From an uncultured Rubrobacteraceae bacterium (GTDB lineage Bacteria; Actinomycetota; Rubrobacteria; Rubrobacterales; Rubrobacteraceae), in the NCBI GenBank assembly GCA_902805975.1, contig CADCUT010000177.1, positions 1 to 64,000 on the forward strand: a stretch of DNA of 64,000 nucleotides, read 5' to 3'. A program made the translations under genes and the position numbers. The notes below the pieces were generated by a model that saw only the letters and a program-made list of their open reading frames with translations, was not told the origin of the DNA and did no database searches. Below are positions 6,740 to 34,611 of the stretch, piece by piece. Numbering within the stretch: the first letter of the stretch is position 1; each line of letters starts with the position of its first letter.

Positions 6740-6788
6740 GTCCGAACGGTAGATGGTTCACGTGAGCCAACCGTGATGGAAGCGTTGC
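6740..6788 (-). promoter_or_regulatory. 11-bp direct-repeat box (WTCACG-N5 family), site 3
   Basis: Minus strand GCAACGCTTCC-ATCACGGTTGG-CTCACGTGAAC then TACCGT 15 nt after the last repeat start; upstream of the secreted-protein gene. Confidence 0.55.
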
Positions 6789-13970: not shown

Positions 13971-14681
13971 TTAGGGCGGTGGTATCTCTTGGGGGCGGGG
14001 CACGAAGCGGTAGCCGATGCCGCGCTCGCTCCGGATGTAGCGCGGCTTGCCCGGAACATCGATCTTGCGGTGCAGACGTTCCACGAAGACCTTCAGGTAG
14101 TGTTCGGCGTCCGTGTACGCCGGTCCCCACGCTCTCCCGAGCAGGTAACGGTGGGGCAGCACGGTTCCCGGGTGCGCCATCAGCGCCTCGAGCAGGCGAA
14201 ACTCGGTGGGCGTGAGCCTGACGGACTCCCCCCGGAAGCGCGCCTCCCGGGTCGCGGAGTCAAGGGCCAGGTCGCCGACGACGAGGTCGGGTCCTGGCAA
14301 CGCGAGGCCCTCGTTCGCCCTTCGCAGGAGCGCCCGCAGGCGCGCGAGCAACTCGGGGTGGTCGAAGGGCTTGGTCAGGTAGTCGTCGGCGCCGAGGTCG
14401 AGCGCCCTGACCTTGTCGCGCGTCCCCTCCCGGACGGTGAGCATCAGTATGGGCACCCGGGATCTCTCGCGGATGCGCCGGCAGACCTCGAAGCCGTCGG
14501 GCGGCGGCATCGCGACGTCGAGCACGACAAGGTCGGGCCCGACCTCGGCGAACCGGCGGAGCGCCTCCTCCCCCCCCGAGGCGATGGTGATCTCGCAGTC
14601 GGGCCAGATCATCCTGGCCCCGAAGGCGACGACCCGGGCCACGTCGCGCGCGTCGTCGGCGATGAGCAGCTTGACCGTCAT
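13971..14681 (-). CDS. response regulator, OmpR/PhoB family
   Basis: Receiver (LLIADD...LVVLDVAMPPPDG...LGADDYLTKPF) plus wHTH (LTPTEFRLLEALM...RYIRSERGIGYRFV). Confidence 0.95.
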   Translation of the reverse strand: MTVKLLIADDARDVARVVAFGARMIWPDCEITIASGGEEALRRFAEVGPDLVVLDVAMPPPDGFEVCRRIRERSRVPILMLTVREGTRDKVRALDLGADDYLTKPFDHPELLARLRALLRRANEGLALPGPDLVVGDLALDSATREARFRGESVRLTPTEFRLLEALMAHPGTVLPHRYLLGRAWGPAYTDAEHYLKVFVERLHRKIDVPGKPRYIRSERGIGYRFVPRPQEIPPP

Positions 14682-15940
14682 CCCACCCCCGATTTCACCG
14701 GGAGAACGACGACAAAGCTCGCGCCGCCTCCGGGCCGGTTCTCGGCCCAGACCCTCCCGCCGTGCATCTCCACGATGCTGCGGGTGATCGCCAGCCCGAT
14801 CCCGGAGCCCCCTTCCTCCGTCTCCAGCCGGTGGAAGCGGCGGAAGACGGCCTCCATCTCGGCCTCGGGGATGCCGGGACCGTCGTCCGAGACGGTGAGC
14901 GAGGCCTCACTGTCCGAGGTGCGGCCGACCAGGAGAACGCGCGTGCCTTGTGGGGTGTGCAGGTGGGCGTTCTCGAGAAGGTTCACCACGACCTGCTCCA
15001 GCAGCCGGGAGTCGCCCTCGACGGGCAGCGCCGCCGGGAGGTCCATCTCAAGCGTCTGTCCCTTCTCGCGGAGCAGGGGGTCCAAGGAGGAGACGGCCTC
15101 ACCGGCGACGGCGCGCAGGTCGAGGGGCTCGCGTTCGAGCCGCAAGGTTCCGGCCTCCAGCCGGTTGTAGGCGAGGAGGTCGTCCACGATCATGCCGAGC
15201 CGGGCCGTGTTGCGCCGGGCGTTCTCCAGAAGCTCGCGCTCCCCCGGCCGCAGCCGCCCGCGCGCGCTCTCCTCCAGCAGCCCGAGACCGGCCCGGGTTG
15301 CCGTCAGGGGGGTTTTGAGGTTGTGGGAGACCGAGGAGACGAACCGCTCCCGCAGGCGGTCGAGCTCCCCCAGACGCTCGGAGGCGCCGCGGGCCGAGCG
15401 GGCCGCCTCCCGCTCCAGCGCCACCCGCCGGGCGAGGACGGCCGTGTTGGCGCCGAACAGGGCCAGCAGGATCACCCGGCTCCCGAGACCCATCAGGCCA
15501 CCGTCGCCGCCGGTCGGCAGCGCCAGGTCGACGGCCGCCATAAGGCCCGCGGCGGCCGCCGTGTAGGCGAGGCTGTCGCGCAGGGTCAGGGTGGCCGCCG
15601 CGCAGACGACGCCCACAAAGAACAGCACAAAGAGCGGTCCGCCAGGTTCCGCGCCGAGAGCGTAGATCAGGGCGCTCGCGGGCAGATCCAGCGCGTACTT
15701 CAGCCTGTACGAGCGCAGCCTGGGCACCCGGATGCGGGCCAGGTCGAAGGCCAGCAGCAGGACGGCGGCCAGCACGACGAGGGCCCACGTCGGGATGCCG
15801 AGACGGCCGTCTGCGGGCTGCGCGAGGGTGAGCACGAGCAGGGCCGCGAGGCCGCCATACTCCACGACAGCCACCGCGCGGTCGAGGAACCCGCGCAGCC
15901 CCGGTTCCCCCAACACGCGCCCGCCCGACGGCTTCGACAT
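14678..15940 (-). CDS. sensor histidine kinase
   Basis: HisKA (FVSSVSHNLKTPLTATRAGL) and HATPase (NLLENAHLHTP...SDDGPGIP...GSGIGLAI); 4-nt overlap with the response regulator. Confidence 0.95.
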   Translation of the reverse strand: MSKPSGGRVLGEPGLRGFLDRAVAVVEYGGLAALLVLTLAQPADGRLGIPTWALVVLAAVLLLAFDLARIRVPRLRSYRLKYALDLPASALIYALGAEPGGPLFVLFFVGVVCAAATLTLRDSLAYTAAAAGLMAAVDLALPTGGDGGLMGLGSRVILLALFGANTAVLARRVALEREAARSARGASERLGELDRLRERFVSSVSHNLKTPLTATRAGLGLLEESARGRLRPGERELLENARRNTARLGMIVDDLLAYNRLEAGTLRLEREPLDLRAVAGEAVSSLDPLLREKGQTLEMDLPAALPVEGDSRLLEQVVVNLLENAHLHTPQGTRVLLVGRTSDSEASLTVSDDGPGIPEAEMEAVFRRFHRLETEEGGSGIGLAITRSIVEMHGGRVWAENRPGGGASFVVVLPVKSGVG

Positions 15941-16036
15941 GCCCCCGGACCTACCCGGCAAGTCCCACCACCGCCCCCGCCAACCGGCGCGAAGACGGCT
16001 CGACCCCTCCAGCGCGACGCACGGACTCCACCTTCC

Positions 16037-16137: not shown

Positions 16138-16180
16138 ATCACGCCCGCATCACGCTCTCTTCACGGCCGGTCGGTATCGT
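16138..16180 (+). promoter_or_regulatory. 11-bp direct-repeat box (WTCACG-N5 family) with promoter, site 1
   Basis: ATCACGCCCGC ATCACGCTCTC TTCACGGCCGG then TATCGT at 16175; aligns over ~48 bp with the site at 21405. Confidence 0.65.
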
Positions 16181-16251: not shown

Positions 16252-16752
16252 ATGCCAGCGGTGACTTTTGCGGCGGCCATCTTGCCGGGCCAGGAGGAGG
16301 GGTGGAGACGCTTCGTGCAGGAGGTCTGGGAGATGCGGTCGGACGAGTACGAGGAGTGCCGGCGGCGCCTCGGCGTCCGCAACGAGTCGGTCTGGCTCGC
16401 GCGCACGGCGGGAGGCGAGACGGCCCTGGCGTACCTGGAGGCCGACGACACCGAGCGTCTGGTGAGCACCCTCGCGGCGTCCGCGGAGCCGTTCGACGTG
16501 TGGCTGAGGGGACGGCTCGCGGAGTTCCACGGCGGCGACCTGGCACGGACGCCCCGCCGGTCGGCAACCGAGCTGGTCTTCTCCTTCGAGCAGGCCGCCG
16601 GCGGGAGTCGTCGCATAAAATCCGAACAGAACCCGCCGGCGACCCGCGTGGCGGAAGGGCCGCCTACGGACGCCGCGCAGAGGGTGTCCGAGAGAGGTGG
16701 AGCGGAGGCAAGGGGACGGGAGACCCCACGCCGGGAGAGGCCGGAGACTTGA
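16252..16752 (+). CDS. conserved hypothetical protein (possibly DUF6176-like)
   Basis: Start at MPAVTFAAAILPGQEEGWRRFVQEVWE...YLEADDTERL; family by pattern memory only. Confidence 0.6.
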   Translation: MPAVTFAAAILPGQEEGWRRFVQEVWEMRSDEYEECRRRLGVRNESVWLARTAGGETALAYLEADDTERLVSTLAASAEPFDVWLRGRLAEFHGGDLARTPRRSATELVFSFEQAAGGSRRIKSEQNPPATRVAEGPPTDAAQRVSERGGAEARGRETPRRERPET

Positions 16753-16791
16753 GTAGGAGGCCAGGTCGGCGGCGCAGATGGCAGACCGCTT

Positions 16792-16822
16792 CTTCGGGGA
16801 CGGCTGCGGGCCGTCCCCGAAG
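16792..16822 (+). terminator. strong intergenic hairpin (terminator/attenuator-like)
   Basis: CTTCGGGGACGG-ctgcggg-CCGTCCCCGAAG, perfect 12-bp stem, 7-nt loop; no clear U-tract. Confidence 0.6.
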
Positions 16823-16861
16823 CGGATATCGTCAGGGACAAGGCTGAGGAGGTCGAACGTT

Positions 16862-17422
16862 TTGGATCACTTGATACGCAGCAGGCTGTTCTGGGTCGCC
16901 GGTCTCGCTGCGCTGGCGCTCGCCCTCTACCTCGCGCTCGGCGTGTTCGGCTTCCAGACCCTGTTCTTCGACGACGAAGTGAACGAGGACTTCCCGGTTG
17001 CCGGGCAGCCCGCCGGGGGGGCGTCCGGGCGGGAGGGTCCCGGGACGACGCAGGAGGAGGCGGGGCGGGACCGGTCCGGGGCACCGGACCTGGTTTCCTC
17101 CGGGCGGTTTCACCCCGTGGCCCATGAAGGCACTGGCGAGGCGCTGGTGTACCGGCTCGAAGACGGCTCCCACGTGCTGCGCCTGGAGGACATAGACATC
17201 TTTAACGGTCCGGCCCTCTACGTCTACGCGGTTGCGGCCCCCGACGCGAACGACGCCGACACCATTCTCAAAGCCGGGTTCGTCAGCGCCGGTCCGCTCA
17301 AGGGGAACCGGGGCAGTCAGACCTACGAGCTTCCGGCGGACTTCGACCCTTCGGTGCACCGCTCCGTCTCCGTGTGGCGCGAACGATTCTCCGTCAACTT
17401 CGCCACGGCGCCCCTCGGCTGA
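16862..17422 (+). CDS. membrane-anchored DM13-domain protein
   Basis: TTG start with gaggagg RBS, TM helix, then LEDIDIFNGPALYVYAV...GPLKGNRGSQTYELPADFD...VSVWRERFSVNFATAPL (DM13). Confidence 0.82.
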   Translation: MDHLIRSRLFWVAGLAALALALYLALGVFGFQTLFFDDEVNEDFPVAGQPAGGASGREGPGTTQEEAGRDRSGAPDLVSSGRFHPVAHEGTGEALVYRLEDGSHVLRLEDIDIFNGPALYVYAVAAPDANDADTILKAGFVSAGPLKGNRGSQTYELPADFDPSVHRSVSVWRERFSVNFATAPLG

Positions 17423-18831
17423 TGGCCGCCCCGGAACAAGGAGAAAGGTCGTCGGGTACGGCACCGCAGCAGGCGGGAGCACCCTTGAACCACGAAGCGT
17501 TGGCCGCGCGGGCCGGGGCCGTCCTGCGCCAGAACGACATGGGGGTCTGGACGAAGGCCGCCCCGAGCCTGTACCCGCACCAGTGGAGCTGGGACTCGGC
17601 GTTTATCGCCATCGGGCTAGCCCACGCGGATACGCGGCGCGCGGCCGACGAGATCCTGTGCCTCCTCAGGCGCCAGTGGACGACGGGCAAGGTACCCCAC
17701 ATCGTCTTCAACCCGAACGCCCCGCCCGACAGCTACTTCCCCGGCCCCGAGCACTGGGCCGCCGCGGCCGAATCTTCGGAGGCGCCGCCCGGCCCGGCCC
17801 AGACCAGCGGCCTCTGCCAGCCGCCGGTGCACGCCATAGCCGCGAGGCGCATCCTGGAGGTGGCCGAGAGGCGGGACGAAGGGATCGAAGACGCGCGGCG
17901 CTTTCTGCGCGAAGCCTACCCCCGCCTCCTCGCCTGGCACCGCTACCTGGCGACCTACCGGGACCCCGAAGGGTCCGGGCTCGTCACGATCTATCACCCC
18001 TGGGAGAGCGGCACCGATAACTCCCCCCGCTGGTTCGAGGCCCTCGAGCGGGTCGAGGTCGGGGAGGGCCTGGCCTACGAGCGGCTCGACCTCCAGCACG
18101 TCAAGGACCCGTCGGAGAGGCCGACCCGGGAGACCTACGACCGCTTTATCTGGCTCGTCGAGCTCATAAAGCGCACCGGCTGCGACGACCGCGTGGTCCA
18201 CGCCACCAGCCCGTTTCTGGTCAAGGACGTGCTGATGAGCGCGATCCTGGTCCGCGCCAACGAGGCGCTGCTGGAGGTGGCCGAACTCGTCGGAGCCCCG
18301 GACGAGGACAAAGAGAAGATAAGCGCCTGGATCTCCCGCGGCCACGAGGGTCTGGCCGGACGTTGGGACCCGGATCTCGGCCTCTGCCTCGACTACGACC
18401 TGCGCGCCGAGTGCTCTCTCGCCACCCGCACGGTCGCCGGCCTCTCGCCCCTGATCTCCGGCTCCGGGACCGCGGAGCAGAGGCGGACGCTCCTGGCCAA
18501 CCTCGACGCGGCGTTTTTCGCGGGCAACCCGAAGCTGCGGTGGCCCCTCCCGCCGAGCACCAGCCCCGGCGAGCCGCGGTTCCACCCCAGGAGCTACTGG
18601 CGCGGTCCCGTCTGGCCCGTCATGAACTGGCTGCTATGGTGGTCCCTGGAACGTTCGGGCGAGGAGGAGCGTGCCGCCAGGCTGCGGCTGGCCTCGCTGG
18701 AGCAGCTCGCGGATGGCCGCTTCGGCGAGTACTACGAGCCGTTCACCGGCGAGCCCTTGGGCTCAGAAGATCAATCCTGGACCGCGGCCGTCGTCCTCGA
18801 CTGGCTGGCGGCCGGCGAGAGAAGGGGGTAG
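17422..18831 (+). CDS. mgh: mannosylglycerate hydrolase-like (MgH/GH63-type) glycosidase
   Basis: [19 protein letters not shown]...[13 protein letters not shown]...[11 protein letters not shown]...[14 protein letters not shown]; start overlaps the DM13 stop (TGATG). Confidence 0.8.
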
Positions 18832-18833
18832 GG

Positions 18834-20672
18834 GTGCGGCAGGAGAGAGTGAACGAGGCGGGTTACCCGCCCATCGCGGAGCACGGCCTGATCGGGGACC
18901 TCCACACCGCCGCGCTGGTGTGCACGAACGGCACCATCGACTGGTACTGCTGCCCGCGCTTCGACGCCCCGAGCCTCTTCGGTTCGATCCTGGATAAAGA
19001 CCGCGGCGGCCACTACCGGATAGCGCCCTCCTCGGAGGGCTGGACGAGCAAGCAGCTCTACATCCCGGACACCAACGTGCTCATCACCCGCTTCCTCTCC
19101 CCCGACGGCGTCGGCGAGGTGCAGGACTTCATGCCGATCACCGGGGACCCCGGCGCCCCGGGGCGGCGACCCCACCGCCTCGTCCGCCGCGTGACGTGCG
19201 TCCGCGGCCGGATGCCCTTCCGGCTGGAGCTCGAGCCCCGCTTCGACTACGGGCGGGAGCGGCACGAGACGCGGCTCGTGGCAGGCGGGGGCGCGACCTT
19301 CGAGACGCCGACCCTAACGGTCGCGCTGGGCTCGCCGCTACCGCTGGAACGTACGGAAGCTGGCGTCCAGACCCACTTCGTCCTCGGTGCCGGGGAGGGC
19401 GTCGCCTTCGTGCTCGACACAGCAAACGACGGCGAGGAGCCGCGCGCCTACGGCGAGGCCGAGACGCTCCGCGCGTTCGAGGACACCGTCGCCTACTGGC
19501 GGCGATGGCTCTCGCGGTCGCGCTACGAGGGGCGGTGGCGGGAGACCGTGCACCGCTCGGCGCTCACGCTCAAGCTCCTCACCTACGCGCCGACCGGCGC
19601 CATCGTCGCGGCGCCGACCACGAGCCTGCCAGAGCAGCTCGGCGGGGGACGCAACTGGGACTACCGTTACACCTGGATCCGGGACGCCGCCTTCTCCCTG
19701 TACGGCCTCCTGCGCCTCGGCTTCACCGAGGAGGCAGGGGCCTTTATGGGCTGGCTGACCGAGAGGTTCCGCGAGGACCGCCGGGACGGTTCGCCCCTGC
19801 AGCTCATGTACGGCATCGACGGCCGGGCCGAGCTCCCCGAGACGACCCTGGACCACCTGGAAGGCTACGCGGGCTCCGCGCCGGTACGCATCGGCAACGG
19901 CGCCGCCGACCAGCTCCAACTCGACATCTACGGCGAGCTTGTAGACTCCGTCTACCTGTACAACAAGTACGGCACGCCCGTCTACCACGACGCCTGGGAG
20001 GATCTCTCCCGCATCGTCGAGTGGGTCTGCGAGAACTGGGACAGGGCTGATGAGGGGATCTGGGAGACCAGGGGCGGCCGGAAGGACTTCACCTACTCCC
20101 GGCTCATGTGCTGGGTCGCCGTCGAGCGGGCCGTCAGGATAGCGCGCCAGAGGGGCCTCCCCGCCGACGTGCCGCGGTGGTCGGCCACCAGGGACGCCAT
20201 CTACCGCCAGATCATGTCAAAGGGCTGGCACGAGGGCCGCGGCGCCTTCGTTCAGCACTACGACACCGAGGTTCTGGACGCCTCCGTCCTCATGATGCCG
20301 CTCGTCAAGTTCATCGCCCCCACCGACCCGCGCTGGCTCTCGACGCTGGATGCGATCTCCTCAGAGCTCGTCGCCGACTCCCTCGTCTACCGCTACAACC
20401 CCGGGGCCTCCCCCGACGGCCTGATCGGCGACGAGGGCACGTTCTCGATCTGCTCTTTCTGGTACGTCGAGGCCCTCACGCGCGCCGGCAGGCTCGACGA
20501 GGCGCGGCTCGCCTTCGAGAAGATGCTCTCCTACGCCAACCACCTGGGCCTGTACTCCGAGGAGGTCGGACCTTCGGGCGAGCTGCTGGGCAACTTCCCG
20601 CAAGCCTTCACCCACCTCTCCCTCATAAGCGCCGCCTTCAACCTCGACCGGGCGCTCAGCGGGGGTACGTAG
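18834..20672 (+). CDS. glycoside hydrolase family 15 (glucoamylase/trehalase-like)
   Basis: [43 protein letters not shown]...[28 protein letters not shown]. Confidence 0.93.
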
Positions 20673-21404: not shown

Positions 21405-21447
21405 TTCACGCCGCCATCACGGTCCCATCACGGCCACCCGGTAACTT
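21405..21447 (+). promoter_or_regulatory. 11-bp direct-repeat box (WTCACG-N5 family) with promoter, site 2
   Basis: TTCACGCCGCC ATCACGGTCCC ATCACGGCCAC then TAACTT at 21442; same spacing as site 1. Confidence 0.65.
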
Positions 21448-21481
21448 GAGGATCCGGACAAGTCCCCTAAAGGAGATTCGG

Positions 21482-22516
21482 TTGCTGCTGGCGGGCGACA
21501 TAGGCGGCACGAAGACCGCCCTGGCGATCTACGCCCCGGAGGACGGGCCGCGCGCGCCGCTGGCGACAGCGACCTTCCCGAGCGCGGATTATCCGAGCCT
21601 GGAGGCGCTGGCGCGGGAGTTCCTGAAGGAGAACCGCCTGCCCGTGGACCGGGCGAGCTTCGGAGTCGCGGGTCCCGTCTCGGGCGGCAGGTCCAAGGCC
21701 ACCAACCTGCCATGGAGGATCGACGAGGCGCGCCTTGAGGAGGAGTTGGGTCTCGGGTCTGCGTACCTGATCAACGACCTGGAGGCCGTCGCCCACGCGA
21801 CGCCGTTTCTCGGTCCCGGCGACCTTTACACGCTCCAGACCGGGGAGCCCGACCCGGAGGGCGCCCTGGCGGTGGTGGCACCCGGCACCGGATTGGGAGA
21901 GGCCTTTCTCACCCGCGAGGGGAGGGGCTACCGCGCCCACCCCTCCGAGGGCGGCCACGCGGACTTCGCGCCGAGAAACGAGGTTCAGGTCGGGCTTCTC
22001 CGCCACCTCCTGGGCCGCTTCGGGCACGCCAGCTACGAGCGGGTCGTCTCCGGCCTGGGCCTCCCCAACATCTACGAGCACCTGCGGGAGGCTGGGCACG
22101 CCGAGGCGTCGCCGCGGGTGGCCGGGGAGCTCTCCCGCGCGGACGACCCCACCCCGGTCATCGTGAACGCGGCGCTGGGCGACGGGGAGCGGTGCGGGCT
22201 TTGCGTCGCCACCCTCGACCTCTTCGTCTCCGTGCTGGGGGCGCAGGCGGGCAACCTGGCGCTCACGGTGCTCGCCACCGGCGGGGTCTTCCTGGGCGGA
22301 GGCATCTCGCCGCGCGTCCTGCCGGCCCTGGAGCGGGGCGGTTTCGTGGCGGCGTTCGGGAGCAAGGGGCGCTTCTCCGGGTTCATGGGGCGGGTGCCGG
22401 TGCACGTGATCCTGCACAAGCAGGCGGCCCTCGTCGGCGCGGCCTGCTACGGCCTCGAGACCTACGGCGAGGGCGCCATCTTCGAGCGTATACCCCAGAG
22501 AGGAGACGACCGATGA
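21482..22516 (+). CDS. glk: glucokinase
   Basis: LAGDIGGTKTALAIY, APGTGLGEAFLTREG, HPSEGGHADFAPRN, GGVFLGGGISPR. Confidence 0.93.
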   Translation: MLLAGDIGGTKTALAIYAPEDGPRAPLATATFPSADYPSLEALAREFLKENRLPVDRASFGVAGPVSGGRSKATNLPWRIDEARLEEELGLGSAYLINDLEAVAHATPFLGPGDLYTLQTGEPDPEGALAVVAPGTGLGEAFLTREGRGYRAHPSEGGHADFAPRNEVQVGLLRHLLGRFGHASYERVVSGLGLPNIYEHLREAGHAEASPRVAGELSRADDPTPVIVNAALGDGERCGLCVATLDLFVSVLGAQAGNLALTVLATGGVFLGGGISPRVLPALERGGFVAAFGSKGRFSGFMGRVPVHVILHKQAALVGAACYGLETYGEGAIFERIPQRGDDR

Positions 22517-23361
22517 CGAACCTCAAGGCCGGCGACGTTTTCCCGGACTTCACCCTTCCAGACCACCGCGGCGCCCCGAGGAAGCTCTCCGGCTACGCCA
22601 GGCCGAGCCCGATGGACGAGAGGCTCGGCTTCACGGACGGCTACCCCGTGGTCGTGGTCTTCGGCCGCGGCTTCTTCTGCCCCCGCGACCAGCGCCAGAT
22701 GCGCAACCTCGTCCCCTTCCAGGACGAACTCGCGGTCAACTACTGCAAGCTCGTCACCGTGAGCGCGGACGCCCCCCGCGTGCAGGCCGCCTTCCGCGCC
22801 GGCCTCGGGGCCGGGTGGCCCTTCCTGTCAGACGGGGAACGGGAGGTTATCCGGGGGCTCGGCATCCTCGACGAGACGGAGGGCGAGTACGCCGACGTCT
22901 CGAGGCCCTTCACCTTCGTGCTGCGGCCCGACCTGACGGTCCACAAGGTCTACGACGGCTGGTTCTTTGTCGGGCGCCCGACGGTCGAGGAGCTTCGGAT
23001 GGACCTGCGCGAGATCATGCGGACGCGCCGCGACTACGACTACGACGCGTACAACACCGACGAGGTGAAGAGGATCCGCATCCCGCAAAAGGAGTGGCTG
23101 GATGGCGCACCACCGTCTGGCGCGAGCGGGCTACCCGTGGCCGACGGAACGGTAAAGACCTTCGACCTGGCCTCGGGGAACGGCGAGATCTCACCCGACG
23201 ACAACGGGGCGGAGGTCTTCTTTAACTTCACCGCCATACCCGGCGATGGCTACCGCACCATCAGGCCCGGAACCCGGGTCCGTTTTGAGGTAGTGGAACA
23301 CGCGAACGCGGGCCCCACGGCCCGCAACGTCCAGACGGAGATGGGGAGGCGGGAAGCGTGA
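22513..23361 (+). CDS. redoxin-like protein with C-terminal cold-shock-like domain
   Basis: Redoxin part [12 protein letters not shown]...[14 protein letters not shown]-terminus [63 protein letters not shown] aligns end to end with CspA-type CSD. Confidence 0.85.
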
Positions 23362-24050
23362 GGTTCCTCTTCGGACGTCAGCCCACCATGGTAGCCCCGG
23401 AAGACGCGCTCCCGGGACGCGAGGCCCAGCTTTTCCCCGTTCCGGAGAGGCACGCCGTCCTTGGCACGCCCCTCGAGCCGCCGTTCCCGGCCGGTTTGAG
23501 CACCGCGGTCTTCGGGATGGGATGCTTCTGGGGTGCCGAGCGCATCTTCTGGCGGCTGGGCGGCGTCCACACGACGGCGGTCGGCTACGCGGGAGGCTTC
23601 ACGCCAAACCCAACCTACGGGGAGGTCTGCGGCGGACGTACCGGTCATACCGAGGCCGTGCTCGTCGTCTTCGACCCTGGACAGGTCTCCTACAGGGACC
23701 TGCTCGCGGCGTTCTGGGAGGGCCACGACCCGACCCAGAAGATGCGCCAGGGCAACGATAAGGGAACCCAGTACCGCTCGGCGGCCTACTACGGGGATCC
23801 AGCGCAGCTCGCGGCCGTCGAGGAGACCCGCTCCGCCTACGAGATGAAGCTGCGGGAGGCCGGGTACGGCCCCATCGCCACCGAGGTGGCCCCCGTGGGC
23901 CCGTTCTACTACGCAGAGGGCTACCATCAGCAGTACCTGCACAAAAACCCGAACGGCTACTGCGGCATCGGCGGGACCGGCGTAAGTTGCCCGGTCGGGC
24001 TTGGCGCGGACGCTGGCGTGGACGCTGGCGCGAACGCGGCGGGACGATGA
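23358..24050 (+). CDS. msrA: peptide-methionine (S)-S-oxide reductase
   Basis: [21 protein letters not shown]...GYAGG...[12 protein letters not shown]...YRSAAYY. Confidence 0.96.
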
Positions 24051-24051
24051 A

Positions 24052-24678
24052 ATGGGAAGCGTGATGGGCCGATTCTTCTCGCGCGGCTTCCGGGGTCGCC
24101 GGCGACCCCGGGAGCAGGCGGAGTCCGACCGCGTGCCGCCGGGTCAGTACCTCGTGGATGGCTTCCCCGTCCTCTCTGCGGGGCCCACACCCCGCACGCC
24201 GCTTGACCGGTGGGACTTCTCCATCGTCGGCGAGATCGACGCGCCCAAGCGGTGGACGTGGGGGGAGTTCCGCGAGCTGCCCTCGGAGACCTTTACCCGC
24301 GACATCCACTGCGTCACCAAGTGGTCCAAGCTCGACACGACCTGGGAGGGCGTCTCGGTCGACACCCTGCTCGGGGGCGCGGAGACGGCGGCCGGGTACG
24401 TAACGGCCTTCTGCGACGGCGGGTACACGACAAACCTGCCGCTGGAGGAGGTGACGGGCGGGAAGGCCTGGCTCGCCTTTGCCTACGACGGGGAGCCGCT
24501 TGAGCCGGAGCACGGCGGGCCCGCGCGCCTGCTCGTACCGCACCTCTACCTCTGGAAGAGCGCCAAGTGGGTGCGCGGTTTGAGGCTCATGAACGGAGAC
24601 GAGCCGGGGTTCTGGGAGTCGCTGGGCTACCACAACGAGGGAGACCCGTGGCGCGAGCAGCGCTACCGGGGGGACTAG
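24052..24678 (+). CDS. sulfite oxidase-like (molybdopterin) oxidoreductase
   Basis: WDFSIVGEIDAPKRWTWGEFRELP...DIHCVTKWSKLDTTWEGVSVDTLL; YedY/SUOX fold pattern. Confidence 0.9.
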   Translation: MGSVMGRFFSRGFRGRRRPREQAESDRVPPGQYLVDGFPVLSAGPTPRTPLDRWDFSIVGEIDAPKRWTWGEFRELPSETFTRDIHCVTKWSKLDTTWEGVSVDTLLGGAETAAGYVTAFCDGGYTTNLPLEEVTGGKAWLAFAYDGEPLEPEHGGPARLLVPHLYLWKSAKWVRGLRLMNGDEPGFWESLGYHNEGDPWREQRYRGD

Positions 24679-24679
24679 G

Positions 24680-25429
24680 GTGGCGATCTCGACGGGCGGG
24701 AGGCTGCTCTGGCACCTGAGCGAGATCACGGAGACCGCCACCGAGACGCCGCGCGCCACGAGCCTGTACCTAGACGTGCCGGGCTGGGAGGGGCACGTGG
24801 CGGGCCAGCACGTGGACGTCAGGCTCACGGCCCCCGACGGCTACCAGGCCCAGCGCAGCTACTCCATAGCATCGGCCCCCGAGGACGACCGCCTCGCGCT
24901 GCTCGTCGAGCGGCTGGAAGACGGGGAGGTCTCCCCCTACCTCGCGGACGAGCTGCGGGCCGGGGACATGCTGGAGCTGCGCGGCCCGATCGGGGGATGG
25001 TTCACCTGGAAGGCGCAGGAAGGCGGGCCGCTGCTGCTCGTCGCCGGGGGCTCGGGCGTCGTGCCGCTGATGGCCATGATCCGGCACAAGGCGGCTGAAG
25101 GGAGCGATGCCCAGGTCCGCCTGCTCCTCTCGTCCCGCTCCCGCGAGGACGTCGTCTTCAGGGAGGAACTCGACCGGCTATCCGCGGAGGACGGGACCCT
25201 TGAGGTGGCCCACACGCTCACCCGCTCCCGGCCCGTGGGCTGGACGGGCTACGCCCGCCGCATCGACCGGGAGATGCTCGCCGAGGTCGCTCCCTCACCG
25301 GAGGAGGAGCCGCTCGTCTTCGTGTGCGGCCCCACGCCGCTGGTCGAGAGGGTGGCGACGGATCTGGTGAACCTCGGGCACGACCCGGCGCGCGTCAAGA
25401 CGGAACGATTCGGACCCACGGGAGGTTAG
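24680..25429 (+). CDS. FAD/NAD(P)-binding ferredoxin reductase-type oxidoreductase
   Basis: RSYSIASAPE, LLLVAGGSGVVPLMAMIRH, FVCGPTPLVERV. Confidence 0.92.
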   Translation: MAISTGGRLLWHLSEITETATETPRATSLYLDVPGWEGHVAGQHVDVRLTAPDGYQAQRSYSIASAPEDDRLALLVERLEDGEVSPYLADELRAGDMLELRGPIGGWFTWKAQEGGPLLLVAGGSGVVPLMAMIRHKAAEGSDAQVRLLLSSRSREDVVFREELDRLSAEDGTLEVAHTLTRSRPVGWTGYARRIDREMLAEVAPSPEEEPLVFVCGPTPLVERVATDLVNLGHDPARVKTERFGPTGG

Positions 25430-25431
25430 AG

Positions 25432-25710
25432 ATGGACGAGCAGAGGCTGGACGGGAACGCGGTCGGGGGACTCCTCGGGGAGATCTTCCCCTTCGAGATG
25501 ACGTCGGCGGAGACCGCCTGCGCCGGTTGCGGCGCGACGTCAGGCGTCGGGGCCGCGATGGTCTACGCGCACGGGATGGGCACCATCGTGCGCTGCGCCT
25601 CGTGCGACAACGCCCTCATCCGCATCGCCCGCCACAACGGCGGCGGCATGGGCCAGTACTGGCTCGACCTCAGGGGGGTTGCATACCTCAAGATCGAGGA
25701 GGCTACTTGA
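25432..25710 (+). CDS. DUF6510-like small zinc-ribbon protein
   Basis: CAGCGATSGVGAAMVYAHGMGTIVRCASCDNALIRIA; located after the sulfite oxidase-like/FNR pair. Confidence 0.75.
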   Translation: MDEQRLDGNAVGGLLGEIFPFEMTSAETACAGCGATSGVGAAMVYAHGMGTIVRCASCDNALIRIARHNGGGMGQYWLDLRGVAYLKIEEAT

Positions 25711-25900
25711 GGATGGACGGACCCTTCAAACCAGCCGACGTCTGGCCCCTCACAGAGGACCGCGCGGCGTCCGCGGGACGTGAGACGTCCGGCGGGACGG
25801 AGATTCTGGCCGTCGCCGGCCCGGAGCGGGGACCCGAAGGTGCGGCGGTAGGCATGCCGGATCGAGACGACGGGCGCGACCGAGGAGAGGCAGGCTAGGG

Positions 25901-27928
25901 ATGATGAGCACAGATAAAGCCCTGGTGGACCGGAACACTATCAACGCCATACGCTTTTTGGCCGTGGACGCGGTCCAGAGGGCCGGGTCCGGCCACCCGG
26001 GCACCCCGATGGGCGCGGCCCCCATGGCTTACACGCTGTGGGACCGCTTCCTCAAGCACAACCCGAAGAACCCGGACTGGCCCGACAGGGACCGCTTCGT
26101 CCTCTCCCCCGGCCACGCCTCGACCCTGCTCTACGCGCTGCTCCATCTCTACGGCTATGACCTTTCGCTGGAGGAGCTCAAAAGTTTCCGGCGGTGGGGC
26201 TCCAAGACGCCGGGCCACCCCGAACGCGGGGAGACGCCCGGCGTCGAGATGACGACAGGTCCCCTGGGCCAGGGGCTCGCCCACGCGGTCGGGATGGCGG
26301 TGGCCGAGCGCTGGCTAGCGGAGCACTACAACATCGGCGGGCACGAGATCGTGGACCACTACACCTACGCCATCGTCTCGGACGGGGACATGCAGGAAGG
26401 CGTCTCGGCCGAGGCCGCGAGCATCGCCGCGAGCCTGAAGCTCGGCAAGCTCATCTACCTCTACGACGACAACGACATCCAGCTGACCGGCCCCACGGAG
26501 CCGGGCTTCGCCGAGAAGGTCGCGGGCCGCTTCGGGGTCTACGGCTGGCAGGTCATCGGCCCGGTAGACGGCTTCGACCCCGACGCCGTCGAGAGGGCCA
26601 TAGAGGAGGCCCGGGCCGACGGGGAGCGGCCGTCCCTGATCGTCTGCAAGACCGTCATAGGCTACGGCAGCCCCGAACAGGCGACGAGCAACGTCCACGG
26701 CGAACCTCTGGGCGAGAAAGGCGTGCGCGCGGCCAAGATGGCCCTCGGCTGGCCCGAGGAGCCGGCCTTCTACGTCCCGGAAGACGTGCTGGAGCATGCC
26801 CGGGGCGCGGTCGAGCGCGGCAGGGAGGCGGAGGCTGCCTGGCGGGAACGGATGGACGCCTACCGGCGGGATCACCCCGAGGAGGCGGCCCGCTTCGAGG
26901 CCGAGGTGAGGGGCGAGCTGCCGGAGGGCTGGGACGCGGCGCTCGAAGGGCTCTTCGCCGACGGCAAGCCTGTCGCCACCCGGGCGGCGGGGGGGACGGC
27001 GCTCAACGCGCTCGTCGGCAGGGTCCACGCGCTGACCGGCGGCTCGGCAGACCTCGACACGAGCACCAAGACGACCATCACCGGCTACGGGAATTTCGGC
27101 TGGGGCGAGTACTGCGGGCACAACATGCACTTCGGGGTGCGCGAGCACGCCATGGGCTCCATCGCGGGCGGCATGGCCGTCCACGGCGGGGTAATCCCCT
27201 ACACCGCGACCTTCCTGACCTTCGCCGACTACATGCGCCCCCCGATGCGTCTGGCGGCCCTGATGGGCCTGCGCGTCGTCTACGTCTTTACCCACGACTC
27301 GATCGGTCTCGGCGAGGACGGCCCGACCCACCAGCCCGTAGAGCACCTGCTGGGTCTGCGCGCCGTGCCGAACCTGACCGTCGTTCGGCCGGCCGACGCG
27401 GCTGAAGCCGCCGAGTCCTGGCGCGCCGCCCTGCTCAACGACGCGGGTCCCACGGTCCTCGTCTTTACCCGCCAGAAGCTGCCCGTCCTCGACCGGGACG
27501 TCTACGCCCCGGCCGAAGGGTTGCAGAGGGGGGGCTACGTTCTCTGGGAGAACGGCCCATCGCCCGAGGTGATCCTTCTCGGAACGGGCTCCGAGACGCA
27601 CATAGCCCTCGAAGCGGGCCACAAGCTCGCCGAAGAGGGCGTGAAGGCCAGGGTGGTCTCGCTGCCGAGTTGGGAGCTCTTTGACGGGCAGCCAGAGGAG
27701 TACAGGGAGAGCGTGTTGCCCCGGGCGGTGCGGGCGCGGGTCGCGGTGGAGGCGGCGGCGGTTTTGGGATGGGAGCACTACGTCGGGCTCGACGGCGCGG
27801 TCGTCGGGATGAGGGGCTTCGGGGCGAGCGCGCCGGCGCCCGAGCTCTACGAGCGGTTCGGCATAACGGCCGAACGCGTGGCGGAGGAAGCCCGTTCGCT
27901 GCTGTTAACGACGCCGGCGCGGGGGTAG
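25901..27928 (+). CDS. tkt: transketolase
   Basis: [66 protein letters not shown]. Confidence 0.98.
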
Positions 27929-27933
27929 GCGGC

Positions 27934-28557
27934 GTGCGCGCGGACATCGCGCCGGGGGCGGTCTTCCCGGACTACGAGCTCACAGACCACGAGAGGAAGC
28001 GTCGTTCTTTGAGCGGGTTGCAGGGTGGGGACCCCATGATCCTGGTGCTCGCGCGCGGCCACTTCTGCCCCAAGGACCACCAGCAGCACCTGGAGCTCGT
28101 CGAGAACTACCCCAAGATCCACGTCGCCTACACCCGGATAGTGACCATCTCCACCGACAACCTGCCCCAGACCAACGAGTTCAGGGACTCGGTGGGCGCC
28201 CGGTGGACCTTCCTCTCAGATCCGTCGCGCAAGGTGCAGAGGGGCCTCGAGATCCAGGAGTACACCGACCCCTTCCACGACCCCATGATCCCGCACACCC
28301 TCGTTTTGGAGCCGGGCCTGGTGATCCACAGCGTCTACGAGGGCTACTGGTTCTGGGGACGTCCCTCCTTCGAGGAGCTACGCCGGGACCTGCGGGATGT
28401 GACGCGCAAGGCGAGGCCGGACTGGGACCCGCAGGCCCCAGGGCTGCGCGAGAAGTGGGAAGAGAGGAACGCTCCCCTGCTCAAGGCGCTCGCCCAGAAG
28501 AAGCGGGGCGTGGGATCCCCGGTCGGGGGTACGCACAAGACTGAACGGAGGATCTGA
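27934..28557 (+). CDS. redoxin-domain (peroxiredoxin-like) protein, paralogue of 22513-23361 without CSD
   Basis: VFPDYELTDHERKRRSLSGL...ILVLARGHFCPKDHQQ...WTFLSDPSRKVQRGL. Confidence 0.85.
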   Translation: MRADIAPGAVFPDYELTDHERKRRSLSGLQGGDPMILVLARGHFCPKDHQQHLELVENYPKIHVAYTRIVTISTDNLPQTNEFRDSVGARWTFLSDPSRKVQRGLEIQEYTDPFHDPMIPHTLVLEPGLVIHSVYEGYWFWGRPSFEELRRDLRDVTRKARPDWDPQAPGLREKWEERNAPLLKALAQKKRGVGSPVGGTHKTERRI

Positions 28558-31382
28558 TGCAGCGCACAAAGACGAGGGTTCACGAGGTGGCCGGGCTGGG
28601 GCAGGCGATCTGGCTGGACTACATCCGCCGGGCCTTTATCCGGGGCGGCGAGATGGAGCGGACGCTGGAGGACGGTGTTCGGGGGGTGACGTCTAACCCC
28701 ACGATCTTCGAGAAGGCCATCGCCGGCAGCGCCGACTACGACGACGACCTGAGAAGGCTGGTGGGCGAGGGCGCCTCGGTCGGCGAGATCTACGAGTCGC
28801 TCGTCCTGGACGATATCGGACGGACGGCCGACCTGCTCCTCCCGCTCTACGAGTCCACGCGCGGCGGGGACGGCTACGTGAGCCTGGAGGTCAGCCCCAC
28901 GCTCGCCCGCGACACGGAGGGTACGGTCGCCGAGGGGCGGCGGCTCTTCGCGGCGCTCGGAAGGCCGAACGTCATGATCAAGGTTCCCGCCACGCCCGAG
29001 GGGCTGCCGGCGATCACGGCCCTCCTCGGAGAGGGCATCAACGTGAACGTCACCCTCCTCTTCTCCCTCGCCCACTACGAGGCCGTCGCCGGGGCTTACC
29101 TGGCCGGCATCGAGAGGCTGGCCGCGCCGGGCGGCGGCCTGGGCGGCGTCGCCTCCGTCGCCTCGTTCTTCATCAGCCGGGTCGACGCGGCGGTGGACAG
29201 GGAGTTGGAGGCGCGCGGACACCCGGGGCTTGTTGGCCGGGCGGCGGTGGCGAACGCCCGCGCCGCCTACGCCCGCTTCCGCGAGGTCTTCTCGGGGCCC
29301 CGGTGGGATGCCCTGGCCTCCAGGCGCGCGAGGCTGCAGCGCCCGCTGTGGGCGAGCACCGGCGTCAAGAACCCGGCCTATCCCGACACCCTGTACGTCG
29401 ACGCCCTGATCGGGCCGGACACCGTGAACACGGTCCCGCTCGCCACCCTCCAGGCCCTCCTGGACCACGGCAACGCCGCACCGACGGTCGAGCCCGGCGT
29501 GGACGAGGCCCGCGCCGACCTCGAACGCCTCGCCGAGGCCGGCGTGGACCTCGACGCCGTCACCCAGAAACTCCAGGAGGACGGCCTGGCCTCCTTCGAG
29601 AAGTCCTTCGAGTCGCTCATGTCGAGCATCGGGGAGAAGCGGGAGCGGCTGCGGGCGCGCCGCCGCCGGGACACGGCGAGCTTCGGCTCGATGACCCGGC
29701 CCTCGGGGCCGGCCCTGGGCCTGGAGAGCGCCGTGGACCGGGCGCTCGCGGAGATGCGGGACAAAGGGGTCGTCGGGCGCATGTGGACCCACGACCACAC
29801 CCTCTGGAGCCCGGACCCGGATGAGGTCTCCAATCGCCTCGGCTGGCTGCACAGCCCGGAGAACACGGTCGAGGCGCTTCCGGAGATAGACCGTCTCGTC
29901 GAGGCGGTCCGGGAGAGCGGTTACACCGACGCCCTGCTCCTCGGCATGGGCGGATCGAGCCTCGCCCCCGAGGTCTTCGCCCGCGCCTTCGGCGTGGCCG
30001 ACGGATACCTGGACCTCGCGGTCCTCGACAGCACCGACCCGGACGCGGTCCTGGAGAAGACGGAAGGACTCGACCCCACAAAGACGCTCTTTATCGTCTC
30101 GACAAAGTCCGGCGGGACGGTCGAGACCTTCTCGTTCTTCAAGCACTTCTACAACCGGGTCGTGGAGGCGGTGGGCCGGGAGGAGGCCGGGAGCCACTTT
30201 ATCGCGATCACGGACCCCGGCAGCGCCCTTGCGGAGACGGCGGAGGAGTACGGGTTCCGGGCGACGTTCTCCAACGACCCGGAGATCGGGGGCCGTTACT
30301 CGGCCCTCTCGCTTTTCGGGATCGTGCCGGCGGCCCTGCTCGGGGTGGACGTGGTGCGGCTGTTGGACCGGGCCTCGACGATGACCTTTAACTGCGACGG
30401 CTGCAACTCCCCCGTCGAGGGCGACAACGCGGGTGCCTGGCTCGGGGCGATCATGGGCGTGATGGCGAACGCCGGGCGGGACAAGCTCACCCTGCTGACA
30501 GAGCCCTCGGTGGAGGCCTTCGGGCCCTGGGCCGAGCAGCTCATCGCCGAGAGCACCGGCAAGAACGGCAAGGGCATCCTGCCCGTCGCCGGCGAGACCG
30601 TCGGACCTCCCGATGTCTACGGTGACGACAGGCTCTTCGTCTACATCGGGCTCGCCGAAGAGGACGGCAGCGAGCTGTGCGCGGCGGCCGGGGCGCTGCG
30701 GGCCGCGGGCCGTCCGGTCGTCATGATCCGCCTGGACGACCTCTACGACCTGGGCGGCGAGTTCTTCCGCTGGGAGGTGGCGACCGCGATCGCCGGAAGG
30801 TCTCTGGGCATCAACCCGTTCGACCAGCCAAACGTCGAGGCCGCCAAGGCCCTCGCCCGCCGCATGGTCGAGGAGTACCGGCAGCGGGGCACGCTCCCCG
30901 GGCTCGAAGCCACGGTCGAGACGGACGGCGTCGTCGCCTACGCCCCTGAGGCCGCCGGGAGCGTCGGGGAGGCGTTCGAGAAGTTCCTGGCGACGGCGAG
31001 GCCCGGCGACTACGTTGCCCTGCAGGCATACGTCGAGCCGTCTGAAGAGACGACGGCCGCGTTGCGGGCGCTGCGTATCAGGCTGCGCCACCGGCTGAAG
31101 CTGGCGACGACCGTCGGGTACGGGCCGCGTTTCTTGCACTCGACCGGCCAGCTCCACAAGGGCGACGGCGGGAACGGTTTGTTTGTCCAGATCACGGCCG
31201 ACGACGGGCGGGATGCGCCCATCCCGGAGACGGCTGGCTCTGGGGAGTCGGTCCTCTCCTTCGGGGTATTGAAGGAGGCGCAGGCCCTCGGGGACCGGCA
31301 GGCGCTCCTGGACGCGGGCAGGCGCGTGATCCGTCTCCACTACCACTCCAATCTTGCCGGCGGCCTGGAGAACCTGGCGTGA
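28557..31382 (+). CDS. bifunctional transaldolase / glucose-6-phosphate isomerase fusion
   Basis: Tal part (LGQAIWLDYIRRAFI...GVTSNPTIFEKAI...RPLWASTGVKNPAY) followed by Pgi part (LLLGMGGSSLAPEV...STKSGGTVETFSFF). Confidence 0.95.
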   Translation: MQRTKTRVHEVAGLGQAIWLDYIRRAFIRGGEMERTLEDGVRGVTSNPTIFEKAIAGSADYDDDLRRLVGEGASVGEIYESLVLDDIGRTADLLLPLYESTRGGDGYVSLEVSPTLARDTEGTVAEGRRLFAALGRPNVMIKVPATPEGLPAITALLGEGINVNVTLLFSLAHYEAVAGAYLAGIERLAAPGGGLGGVASVASFFISRVDAAVDRELEARGHPGLVGRAAVANARAAYARFREVFSGPRWDALASRRARLQRPLWASTGVKNPAYPDTLYVDALIGPDTVNTVPLATLQALLDHGNAAPTVEPGVDEARADLERLAEAGVDLDAVTQKLQEDGLASFEKSFESLMSSIGEKRERLRARRRRDTASFGSMTRPSGPALGLESAVDRALAEMRDKGVVGRMWTHDHTLWSPDPDEVSNRLGWLHSPENTVEALPEIDRLVEAVRESGYTDALLLGMGGSSLAPEVFARAFGVADGYLDLAVLDSTDPDAVLEKTEGLDPTKTLFIVSTKSGGTVETFSFFKHFYNRVVEAVGREEAGSHFIAITDPGSALAETAEEYGFRATFSNDPEIGGRYSALSLFGIVPAALLGVDVVRLLDRASTMTFNCDGCNSPVEGDNAGAWLGAIMGVMANAGRDKLTLLTEPSVEAFGPWAEQLIAESTGKNGKGILPVAGETVGPPDVYGDDRLFVYIGLAEEDGSELCAAAGALRAAGRPVVMIRLDDLYDLGGEFFRWEVATAIAGRSLGINPFDQPNVEAAKALARRMVEEYRQRGTLPGLEATVETDGVVAYAPEAAGSVGEAFEKFLATARPGDYVALQAYVEPSEETTAALRALRIRLRHRLKLATTVGYGPRFLHSTGQLHKGDGGNGLFVQITADDGRDAPIPETAGSGESVLSFGVLKEAQALGDRQALLDAGRRVIRLHYHSNLAGGLENLA

Positions 31383-32152
31383 TCCGGGCCGTGATCTTCG
31401 ACCTCGACGGCACGCTGGTCGAGACGGAGGAGCTAAAGGCGCTCTCCTACGCCCGCGCCGCCAGGGAACTCCGCCCGGATGTGCGCGAAGCGGACGTCGT
31501 AGACGGCTTCAAGGACCTGGTCGGCCGCCCGCGCCGGGAGGTCGCGACGGCGCTCGTCGAACGCTTCGGGCTCGAAGATGCGGCCCGCAGGAGGATGGCG
31601 GAGTTCGGGGTGGAGACGCCGTGGCAGGCTTACGTGCGGGTCAGGTTGCTCGTCTACGAGCGCCTGCTGGCCGACCCCGACCTTATCGAGAACCACCGCT
31701 ATCCGCACAACGTGGCGCTGCTGCGCGAGGTCAGACGCCTGGGTTACCCGACGGGCCTCGCCACTATGTCCCATCGCGAGCAGGCGCGGCGCGTGCTCGG
31801 CATCCTCGGGCTCGGGGACGCGTTCGACGTGGTGGCGACCCGCGACGACGTCGAGCACGGCAAGCCGGACCCGGAGATAGACCTGCTCGTCGCGCGCGGG
31901 CTCGGGGTGGGACCGGGGGAGTGCCTGATCCTCGAGGACTCCCCAGCCGGCGTGGCCGCGGGTCTCGCGGCCGGCATGGAGGTCATCGCCGTCACCACGG
32001 TCCTCACCCGCCAGAAGTTCCGGGACACGAGCCTCCTGAGCCGCTGCCGGGTCGTGTACGACCCGCGGGACCTGCCGGTCGTGGTGCGGCGCGTGATCTC
32101 GGACTACGGCAAAGCGCCCGGGAAAAGGTCCCCCGCCACGAATCGGGCGTAG
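31379..32152 (+). CDS. HAD-family phosphatase
   Basis: IRAVIFDLDGTLVETEELKA...GKPDPEIDLLVARGLGV...LILEDSPAGVAAGLAAGM. Confidence 0.93.
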   Translation: MIRAVIFDLDGTLVETEELKALSYARAARELRPDVREADVVDGFKDLVGRPRREVATALVERFGLEDAARRRMAEFGVETPWQAYVRVRLLVYERLLADPDLIENHRYPHNVALLREVRRLGYPTGLATMSHREQARRVLGILGLGDAFDVVATRDDVEHGKPDPEIDLLVARGLGVGPGECLILEDSPAGVAAGLAAGMEVIAVTTVLTRQKFRDTSLLSRCRVVYDPRDLPVVVRRVISDYGKAPGKRSPATNRA

Positions 32153-32185: not shown

Positions 32186-33094
32186 ATGGAACTCGCGATG
32201 ATCGGGCTCGGCAAGATGGGCGGCAACATGGCGCGGCGACTGATGGGCGGCGGCCACACGGTGGTCGCCTGGGCCCGCAAACCCGAGGCGGTGAACGCGC
32301 TGGTCACCGAGGGAGCCGTCGGCGCCGAGTCCCTGGAGGACGTCGTGAAGAAGCTCTCCGCCCCGCGCGTGGCCTGGGTGATGGTCCCCTCCGGCGGCCC
32401 GACGGAGAGCACGGTCGAGAGGCTCGCGGGCCTGCTCGAAGAGGGCGACACGGTCGTGGACGGCGGAAACAGCAACTACCACGACACCGTCCGGCGGGGT
32501 GCAATGCTCGCCGAACGGGGCATCAACTACGTGGACGTCGGGACCAGCGGCGGCGTCTGGGGCCTCGCCGAAGGCTACTCCATGATGGTCGGCGGCGAGG
32601 CCGGGGCGGTCGAGGGGCTAAAGCCCGCCCTTGAGACCCTCGCCCCGGCGGCGGACAGGGGCTGGGGGCACGTCGGTCCTTCGGGATCCGGCCACTTCGT
32701 CAAGATGGTCCACAACGGCATCGAGTACGGCATGATGCAGGCCTATGCCGAGGGGTTCGCGCTCATGCGGCGCAAGGAGGAGTTCGGGCTTGACCTGCAC
32801 CAGATCTCCGAGATCTGGCGCGACGGCAGCGTGGTCCGCTCCTGGCTTTTGGACCTTACGGCCCGCGCCCTCTCCGAAGGCGCCGACCTCGAAGGCCTCG
32901 CCCCATACGTCCAGGATTCGGGCGAGGGCCGCTGGACGGTCGTCGAGGCCATAGAGCTCGGCGTCGCCGTGCCGGTCATCACCACGGCCCTCGAACAGCG
33001 CTTCTCCTCCCGCGAGGCCGACAACTACGCCAACAAGCTCCTGAACGCGATGCGCAACCAGTTCGGCGGCCACGAGCTCCAGCGCAAGGCGTGA
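32186..33094 (+). CDS. gnd: 6-phosphogluconate dehydrogenase (decarboxylating), short type
   Basis: [67 protein letters not shown]. Confidence 0.96.
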
Positions 33095-34611
33095 GCGTGG
33101 ACGGAGCACGAACCACAAGCTGCGGCCGGCCGACCACCATCGTCATCTTTGGCGCCTCGGGCGACCTGACGAAGCGCAAGCTGGTCCCGGCCCTCTACAA
33201 CTTGCACGTCAAAGGACGTCTGCCGGAGGGCACTCGCATCGTCGGCTACGCCCGCCGCTCCTACGACGGCGAACAATTCCGGGGCCTGATGCGTGAGGGG
33301 ACCGAAGAGTTCTCATCGGCGACCTTCGAGGAGGGAGTTTGGGAGGAGTTCGAGGCGAACCTCTACTACGCGCGCGGCGACCTCTCGGCGCCCGGGGATT
33401 TCGGGCGGTTGCGGGGTACGCTGGAAGAACTGGAAGGGGGTCCGTCCGACCGGCTCTACTACCTGGCGACGGCCCCGGATCTCTACGCGGCCATCATCGA
33501 GAACCTGGGAGGGGCCGGGATGGCCGGGGAGGAGGAAGGTCACAGGCGGGTCGTGGTCGAGAAGCCTTTTGGGCGGGACCTGGCCTCGGCCCTGGATCTC
33601 GACCGCGGGATCGGGGCGGTCTTCGGCGAGGAGCAGGTCTTCAGGATCGACCACTACCTGGGCAAGGAGACGGCCCAGAACGTCCTGTTTTTCCGGTTCG
33701 CCAACACCCTTTTCGAGCCGGTCTGGAACCGGACCTACGTGGACTCCGTCCAGATCACGGTCGCGGAGTCGGTCGGCGTCGGCCACCGCGCGGGCTACTA
33801 CGACAACGCCAGCGTGCTCCGCGATATGTTCCAGAACCACCTCCTCCAGCTCCTGGCGCTGGTGGCTATGGAGCCCCCGGCCTCCTTCTCCGCGACGTTC
33901 TTGCGCGACGAGACGGCGAAGGTCTTAGCCTCCGTCAGGCCCGTCGAGGGCGCAGCGGTAAAGACCGCAACGGTGCGGGGGCAGTACGAGGGCTACCGCG
34001 AGGAGGCCGGCGTGGCCGAGGGCTCGGGGACGGCGACCTACGGGGCCATAGAGCTCTACCTGGACAACTGGCGCTGGCAGGGGGTGCCCTTCTACCTGAG
34101 AAGCGGGAAGGCGCTCGCCGAGAAGTCCTCCGAGATCGTCATCCGGTTCAAGAGCCTGCCGCACTCGATGTTTTCCCGGTCAGACGGCGCGGGGGTTGGC
34201 CCGAACGTGCTGGGTCTCTGCCTCCAGCCCGACGAAGGCGTGCACCTGCGGTTCGAGGCGAAGGTGCCGGGCGACGTCTCCCGGATGCGTCCCGTGGACA
34301 TGACGTTCCATTACGCTGACGCCTTCGGCGAGGACGCCATCCCCGACGCCTACGAGCGGCTGCTCCTCGACGCGGTAGGCGGGGACGCGGCGCTCTTTAT
34401 CCGCTCGGACGCCATCGGGCTCTCGTGGCGCCTGATCGACCCCATCCTGAAAGCCTGGGAGAACGACGAAGTCCCGCTCTCGACCTACGCCCCGGGGACC
34501 TGGGGGCCCGAAGAGGCCGAACAACTCCTGGCCCGGGATGGGCGCGCCTGGCTGCGCTCCTGCGGGGGCCACGAAAGGTCGCGGGTCGAGGCGGCGCAAG
34601 GGACAGGATAA
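33091..34611 (+). CDS. zwf: glucose-6-phosphate 1-dehydrogenase
   Basis: [56 protein letters not shown] start overlaps the gnd stop. Confidence 0.97.

Follow-up and report, generated by a model that had tools for sequence, protein, structure and literature searches.

The question raised by this locus is how the glucokinase, redox and pentose-phosphate genes behind a short repeat array are controlled in an uncultured, desert-type Rubrobacteraceae bacterium, and which protein reads the array. The window, i.e. the whole stretch of 64,000 nucleotides that was analysed, belongs to a genome of 3.53 Mb (G000); the genomes compared are drafts. The original prediction had seen in the array a repeat-controlled promoter of this gene cluster, which is supported by arrays in two relatives, a strict 11-bp period and a -10 spacing as in Pho boxes without a -35 element. 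It had also named response regulators as binders, in agreement with the comparative evidence and with the two-component system encoded nearby.

Layout and rarity of the array ahead of glk

The array at 21405 is located between glk (TTG start at 21482) and a GNAT gene that ends at 21342. Three 11-bp units had been placed at 21405, 21416 and 21427, and a -10-like TAACTT at 21442, 15 nt after the start of the third unit. Direct inspection of the sequence found these positions correct to the letter (in order TTCACGCCGCC, ATCACGGTCCC, ATCACGGCCAC, CCGG, TAACTT), and the copy at 16138 has the identical layout. Counted from the TCA of unit 3 (21428) the -10 element follows at 14 bp, a distance also found at 16138. 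With a 17-bp spacer, a hypothetical -35 element would fall on 21419-21424, where ACGGTC matches TTGACA at one of six positions; its counterpart at the 16138 site, read from the sequence as ACGCTC, likewise matches at one of six. The predicted 5' leader of glk is about 28 nt long, and no structured RNA was found in the window with Rfam.

Arrays, spacing, conservation and target genes were computed directly, and genome-wide statistics were obtained by searching for patterns, with the reversed patterns as controls. Since the units are short and degenerate and the motif was chosen by eye, a chance likeness or a non-functional repeat has to be considered. However, an exact calculation predicts only about 2.5e-5 matches to (WTCACN6)x3+N10+TANNNT genome-wide, and two were observed, at 21405 and 16138. 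The same two sites were the only matches to WTCACN6WTCACN6WTCAC with up to one mismatch in the 3.53-Mb genome (reversed control 0). Among 40 Rubrobacteraceae genomes, three WTCAC units plus -10 gave 18 matches at one mismatch or fewer, against none in the reversed controls, and the offset to the -10 was identical in all 18 arrays. Nine exact matches were counted across 397 genomes of the phylum, all of them in Rubrobacteraceae. When the 64 kb were scanned motif-blind for a -10 preceded by three 11-bp units, again only the 21405 and 16138 sites were recovered, and periods of 8-10 and 12-14 gave zero matches; the scan of 20 shuffled windows gave one. Arrays are furthermore conserved at orthologous positions (see below), so that the chance reading is already contradicted and we regard its probability as negligible.

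Chance similarity between the two sites had been called unlikely on the grounds of their shared tail. The statement holds; its reason does not, since relatives do not keep most of the tail (GGCCRSYCGG) and share TCAC(G) x3 and TAnnnT as their conserved core, and it is the array and its spacing that exclude chance. Exact matches to the tail consensus occur in the genome only at 21405 and 16138, and the next are five at 3 mismatches, compared with one in the reversed control.

Table 1. Arrays, promoter elements and genes of the window, by position.
Feature	Position	Strand	Remarks
DUF7482-match protein, probably secreted	5316..6596	-	behind third array
Third array, weaker	6746..6788	-	GCAACGCTTCC/ATCACGGTTGG/CTCACGTGAAC + -10 TACCGT; PWM 18.4
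OmpR/PhoB-type response regulator, proposed array binder	13971..14681	-	Response_reg + Trans_reg_C
Histidine kinase partner	14678..15961	-	HisKA + HATPase_c
First array	16138..16180	+	ATCACGCCCGC/ATCACGCTCTC/TTCACGGCCGG + -10 TATCGT at 16175; counterparts in G003, G004
Small protein without family, first gene behind 16138 array	16252..16752	+	no match in Pfam, NCBIfam
DM13-domain protein	16778..17422	+	
Glucosylglycerate hydrolase	17374..18831	+	NF047898 594.8 bits, cut-off 550 passed; ORF limits
Trehalase-like GH15 enzyme	18732..20672	+	GH15 and TREH_N domains; ORF limits
Repeat unit 1	21405..21415	+	TTCACGCCGCC
Repeat unit 2	21416..21426	+	ATCACGGTCCC; occupies expected -35 place
Repeat unit 3	21427..21437	+	ATCACGGCCAC; TCA at 21428
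-10-like element TAACTT	21442..21447	+	TAnnnT kept in relatives
Ribosome-binding site AAGGAG	21470..21475	+	read from sequence
Glucokinase glk (TTG start)	21482..22516	+	PF02685 and TIGR00749 above cut-off
AhpC/TSA-type redoxin fused to cold-shock domain	22513..23361	+	start overlaps glk stop
Peptide methionine sulfoxide reductase MsrA	23358..24050	+	
Molybdopterin-dependent oxidoreductase	24001..24678	+	ORF limits; G003 homologue has own array
FAD/NAD oxidoreductase	24680..25429	+	
Transketolase	25901..27928	+	
AhpC/TSA peroxiredoxin	27850..28557	+	ORF limits
Transaldolase-phosphoglucose isomerase fusion	28557..31382	+	single ORF, 941 aa
HAD-family hydrolase	31379..32152	+	
6-phosphogluconate dehydrogenase (gnd)	32186..33094	+	
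Glucose-6-phosphate dehydrogenase (zwf)	33091..34611	+	

Counterparts in relatives and the genes behind the arrays

Two genomes of the same genus as G000, namely G003 and G004 (AVDCRST_MAG01, uncultured Rubrobacteraceae), carry a TCAC array 48-51 bp ahead of the orthologous glk (73% and 86% identity to G000, respectively), likewise with the -10 at +15. The 43-bp site is identical at 27 of 43 positions between G000 and G003 and at 29 of 43 between G003 and G004; the corresponding values for the 60 bp upstream of the array are 18/60, which is near random, and 15/60. The homologues of the small protein 16252 (64% identity in G003, 60% in G004) also stand behind arrays, with scores of 34.0 and 24.5 on a position weight matrix that was built from six such sites and has a null maximum of 15.3 in 2 Mb. 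In G003 the homologue of the gene behind the 6788 array has a weak array whose score of 11.3 is inside the null range and which is supported by its position. All three arrays of the window thus have positional counterparts in relatives. The genes 24001 and 24680 belong to the glk cluster in G000, whereas their G003 homologues (77% and 73% identity) are found on a different contig behind an array of their own, 105 bp upstream; the pair was relocated yet carries the same element, which is good evidence of a regulon. Genome-wide, G003 contains 28 TCACG arrays (up to 3 mismatches; 0 in controls) compared with three in G000, a large expansion of the TCACG regulon in one species, where the downstream genes include stress and F420-type ones. 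Ferritin-like, OsmC, class I aldolase, F420-dependent and CRP-like genes are also among those preceded by arrays in G003, and they fit a stress-recovery regulon, not a phosphate one.

The genes behind the arrays of G000 suggest the breakdown of compatible solutes to glucose by the glucosylglycerate hydrolase and the trehalase-like enzyme, followed by NADPH supply and redox repair. We infer a route from protectants via glucose to glucose-6-phosphate and NADPH, accompanied by oxidative repair. Glucosylglycerate hydrolase frees glucose and glycerate and is induced in mycobacteria recovering from nitrogen starvation (PMC6608630), and the protectants of Rubrobacteria include trehalose and mannosylglycerate (PMC11519504). 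The second hydrolytic enzyme reached 402.5 bits against TreH1 (NF041084), under the equivalog cut-off of 820; since it misses this cut-off and has the domains, it is called trehalase-like only. The fusion of a redoxin with a cold-shock domain is unusual and is found directly behind glk in G003 and G004 too. In view of the gap at 25430-25900 within the glk cluster, a further promoter may serve its last genes.

The link to solute breakdown comes from G000 alone, because G003 and G004 lack the hydrolase operon behind their 16138-type arrays. A fragment resembling the trehalase-like enzyme of the window lies between the 16252 homologue and glk in G004 (L027:3114-3494(-)), which apparently lost the hydrolase/trehalase section of the operon by deletion. 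In a further genome, G001, the hydrolase, trehalase-like, gnd and glk genes are linked without an array (the middle genes identified by eye), and the functional grouping is therefore older or wider than the control by arrays. A diverged array ahead of the G001 glk was considered as well, but its upstream region holds no in-phase array.

The candidate regulator and its mode of action

The likeliest candidate for the binder of the arrays is, with good probability, the two-component regulator 13971-14681(-), because all three TCACG arrays of G000 lie within 8 kb of its gene and because its helix/wing type co-occurs with arrays. Genuine series of TCACG arrays occur only in G000, G003 and G004, and the regulator orthologues of these three genomes (74-85% identity, the window itself 100%) share the helix HYLKVFV(E/G)RL and the wing SERGIGY. 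The orthologues in G001, G031 and G036 (68-71%) have the helix HYLKVFVRRL and the wing TEWGIGY, and arrays are absent; a fourth, in G022, ends at a contig end before the helix. In these four genomes we found neither TCACG arrays nor, near the regulator, any three-unit array beyond chance-like 3-mismatch matches. The Fisher-type chance of the co-occurrence is 0.0035 for any orthologue and 1e-4 for the helix type, a split chosen post hoc among genomes that are related and incomplete.

The best structural relative of the regulator is KdpE. It nevertheless misses the cut-offs of both KdpE (160.6 bits, cut-off 325) and PhoB (TIGR02154, 165.5 bits, cut-off 296.2), and the kinase matches KdpD at positions 640-883 only and misses the KdpD cut-off. 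Like intramembrane-sensing kinases, this kinase has a largely hydrophobic N-terminal half and lacks a recognised sensor domain. Because the 16138 array points the opposite way, we do not claim that the kinase/regulator pair regulates itself from it.

Two further types of array were observed in the family. Three copies of TTCACGGCTTC with the same -10 spacing occur in G006 (C2:50413, 53002, 65233 and 81873), G030 (C2:94452 and 95508), G010 (C14:1375 and 3307), G063 (C268:11871) and G023 (C152:4078); the single matches to the TCACG pattern in G006, G030 and G063 belong to this series. These arrays precede Met-rich proteins (copper-like, DUF305-type by eye), a conserved membrane protein and a response regulator-kinase pair, and probably represent a metal-responsive regulon of another regulator. 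Arrays of (C/G)TAACG units were found at G000:C113:20122-20163(-), G004:C442:11839-11880(-), G000:C57:26374 and, in G003, at C104:356(-) and C33:5600(-). The C113 and C442 copies each have a different OmpR-type response regulator gene at a distance of about 0.6 kb. When up to 3 mismatches are allowed, the remaining matches in G000 all belong to the TAACG type, and one of these arrays adjoins another response regulator.

The same promoter mechanism could also be served by another OmpR-family regulator, with the adjacent two-component system as a bystander. With about 38 matches to this type of regulator in the genome, the assignment rests on proximity and on co-occurrence in few genomes; the recognition helix (HYLKVFVERLHRK) is KdpE-like, unlike that of M. 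tuberculosis PhoP, and the 28 arrays of G003 are spread over many contigs, so that the regulon is not always local to the regulator. Against a bystander speak the clustering of the three arrays of G000 around this one gene, the fact that array presence follows the helix/wing type of the regulator across 40 genomes, and the observation that other array types adjoin other response regulators. By analogy, the TTCACGGCTTC arrays of other genomes precede their own regulator-kinase pair. Overall, a different binder appears rather unlikely.

Judged from the sequence, the 21405 site is probably a class-II activator promoter for an OmpR/PhoB-type response regulator, with the 13971-15961(-) system as the likeliest one and with a three-part local regulon. 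Regulators of this family bind head-to-tail on direct repeats of 7+4 bp. Three subunits of the regulator of the 13971-15961(-) system would accordingly sit head-to-tail on the 11-bp units, and the last unit, 14 bp upstream of the -10 as counted from its TCA, would stand in for the missing -35 contact. The regulator on the third unit would come to lie next to sigma region 4 and recruit RNA polymerase, as PhoB does at Pho boxes. We infer which protein binds, that it activates and does not repress, and what the signal is; the economical reading would be a class-II mode of activation that places the third unit beside sigma region 4, and osmotic, desiccation or oxidative signals would fit the targets of the arrays.

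Alternatively, the regulator might sit between the -10 and the -35 region and there block the polymerase. Repression occurs among some OmpR-family regulators, and units 2 and 3 overlie the -35/spacer region. Without an activator, however, the polymerase has no -35 to use here, the geometry is the same as in activating Pho boxes, and a -10 distance that is constant in all arrays is typical of activation, so that an operator for repression seems quite improbable.

Under activation, the local regulon would comprise the 16138 operon (small protein, DM13 protein, glucosylglycerate hydrolase and trehalase-like enzyme), the glk-redox-pentose-phosphate cluster behind 21405, and the probably secreted DUF7482 protein behind 6788(-). 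Their products would convert stored compatible solutes to free glucose and further to glucose-6-phosphate and NADPH, and would repair peroxide and methionine-sulfoxide damage, and the whole might act as a switch that re-mobilises protectants once stress eases. More tentatively, one may speculate on a promoter grammar of Rubrobacteraceae without -35 elements, in which three 11-bp units are phased to the -10 and each OmpR-type regulator has its own word (TCACG here, TTCACGGCTTC for a copper-like one, TAACG for others), combined with a dedicated switch that, as cells recover from desiccation or osmotic stress, converts stored glucosylglycerate and trehalose to glucose-6-phosphate and NADPH. No paper on binding sites of Rubrobacter response regulators turned up when the open PubMed Central library was searched by text. 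The arrays offer a precise promoter rule, open to testing, for bacteria that tolerate radiation and desiccation, and a concrete hypothesis of a regulon in which the hydrolysis of compatible solutes is tied to glucokinase, redox repair and the supply of NADPH. The comparison also suggests that the 11-bp word preceding the -10 could serve to match several regulators of the family to their targets.

Comparison with known systems

As in class-II tandem-repeat promoters, the period is 11 bp only, the distance to the -10 is fixed and the -35 is weak or absent. Closest in design is the Pho box of E. coli phoA. PhoB units are 11 nt long (PMC4415409), and PhoB promoters have weak -35 elements and need PhoB for polymerase recruitment (PMC7408454). 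For phoA, too, we computed 14 bp between the -10 and the TCA in the downstream half of the Pho box; the activator site replaces the -35 in both, and the letters are alike (GTCACGGCC in phoA, ATCACGGCC at the 21405 site). This shared architecture, together with the GTTCACC core of Streptomyces Pho boxes (PMC4415409), would suit a true Pho box at which PhoP/PhoB turns the cluster on under phosphate starvation. Unlike phoA with its two units and CTGTCAT core, however, the array here has three well-conserved units with the core WTCACG, its targets are sugar and redox genes rather than phosphate genes, and the adjacent regulator is no PhoB equivalog by the score given above. No phosphate gene (e.g. 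pstS) was found among the array-preceded genes examined in G000 (three arrays) and G003, and the PstS family TIGR00975 had no match in G000, G003 or G004, an absence of little weight because the model may miss PstS relatives. Moreover, most other Rubrobacteraceae are without arrays, whereas a Pho system should be general. Control by phosphate starvation is therefore very improbable.

Among Actinomycetota, the PhoP operators of Streptomyces share the 11-nt units, the TTCAC core and the presence of several units with the arrays described here, but the latter have three units at one fixed -10 distance and no phosphate targets, and their exact pattern is confined to Rubrobacteraceae within the phylum scan. 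PhoP of M. tuberculosis recognises TCACAGC repeats with a strict 4-bp spacer, which are bound by a tandem response-regulator dimer (PMC4832192); the 7+4 direct repeats and the TCAC core are the same, whereas a third unit is added here and the recognition-helix residues of the candidate regulator differ. KdpDE is related through KdpE, the best solved relative of the candidate regulator, but the candidate kinase is without the large N-terminal part of KdpD, and the NCBIfam cut-offs for KdpE and KdpD are missed. The promoter design is thus of a known, Pho-box-like kind, while its three-unit form is lineage-specific and its set of targets is of interest.
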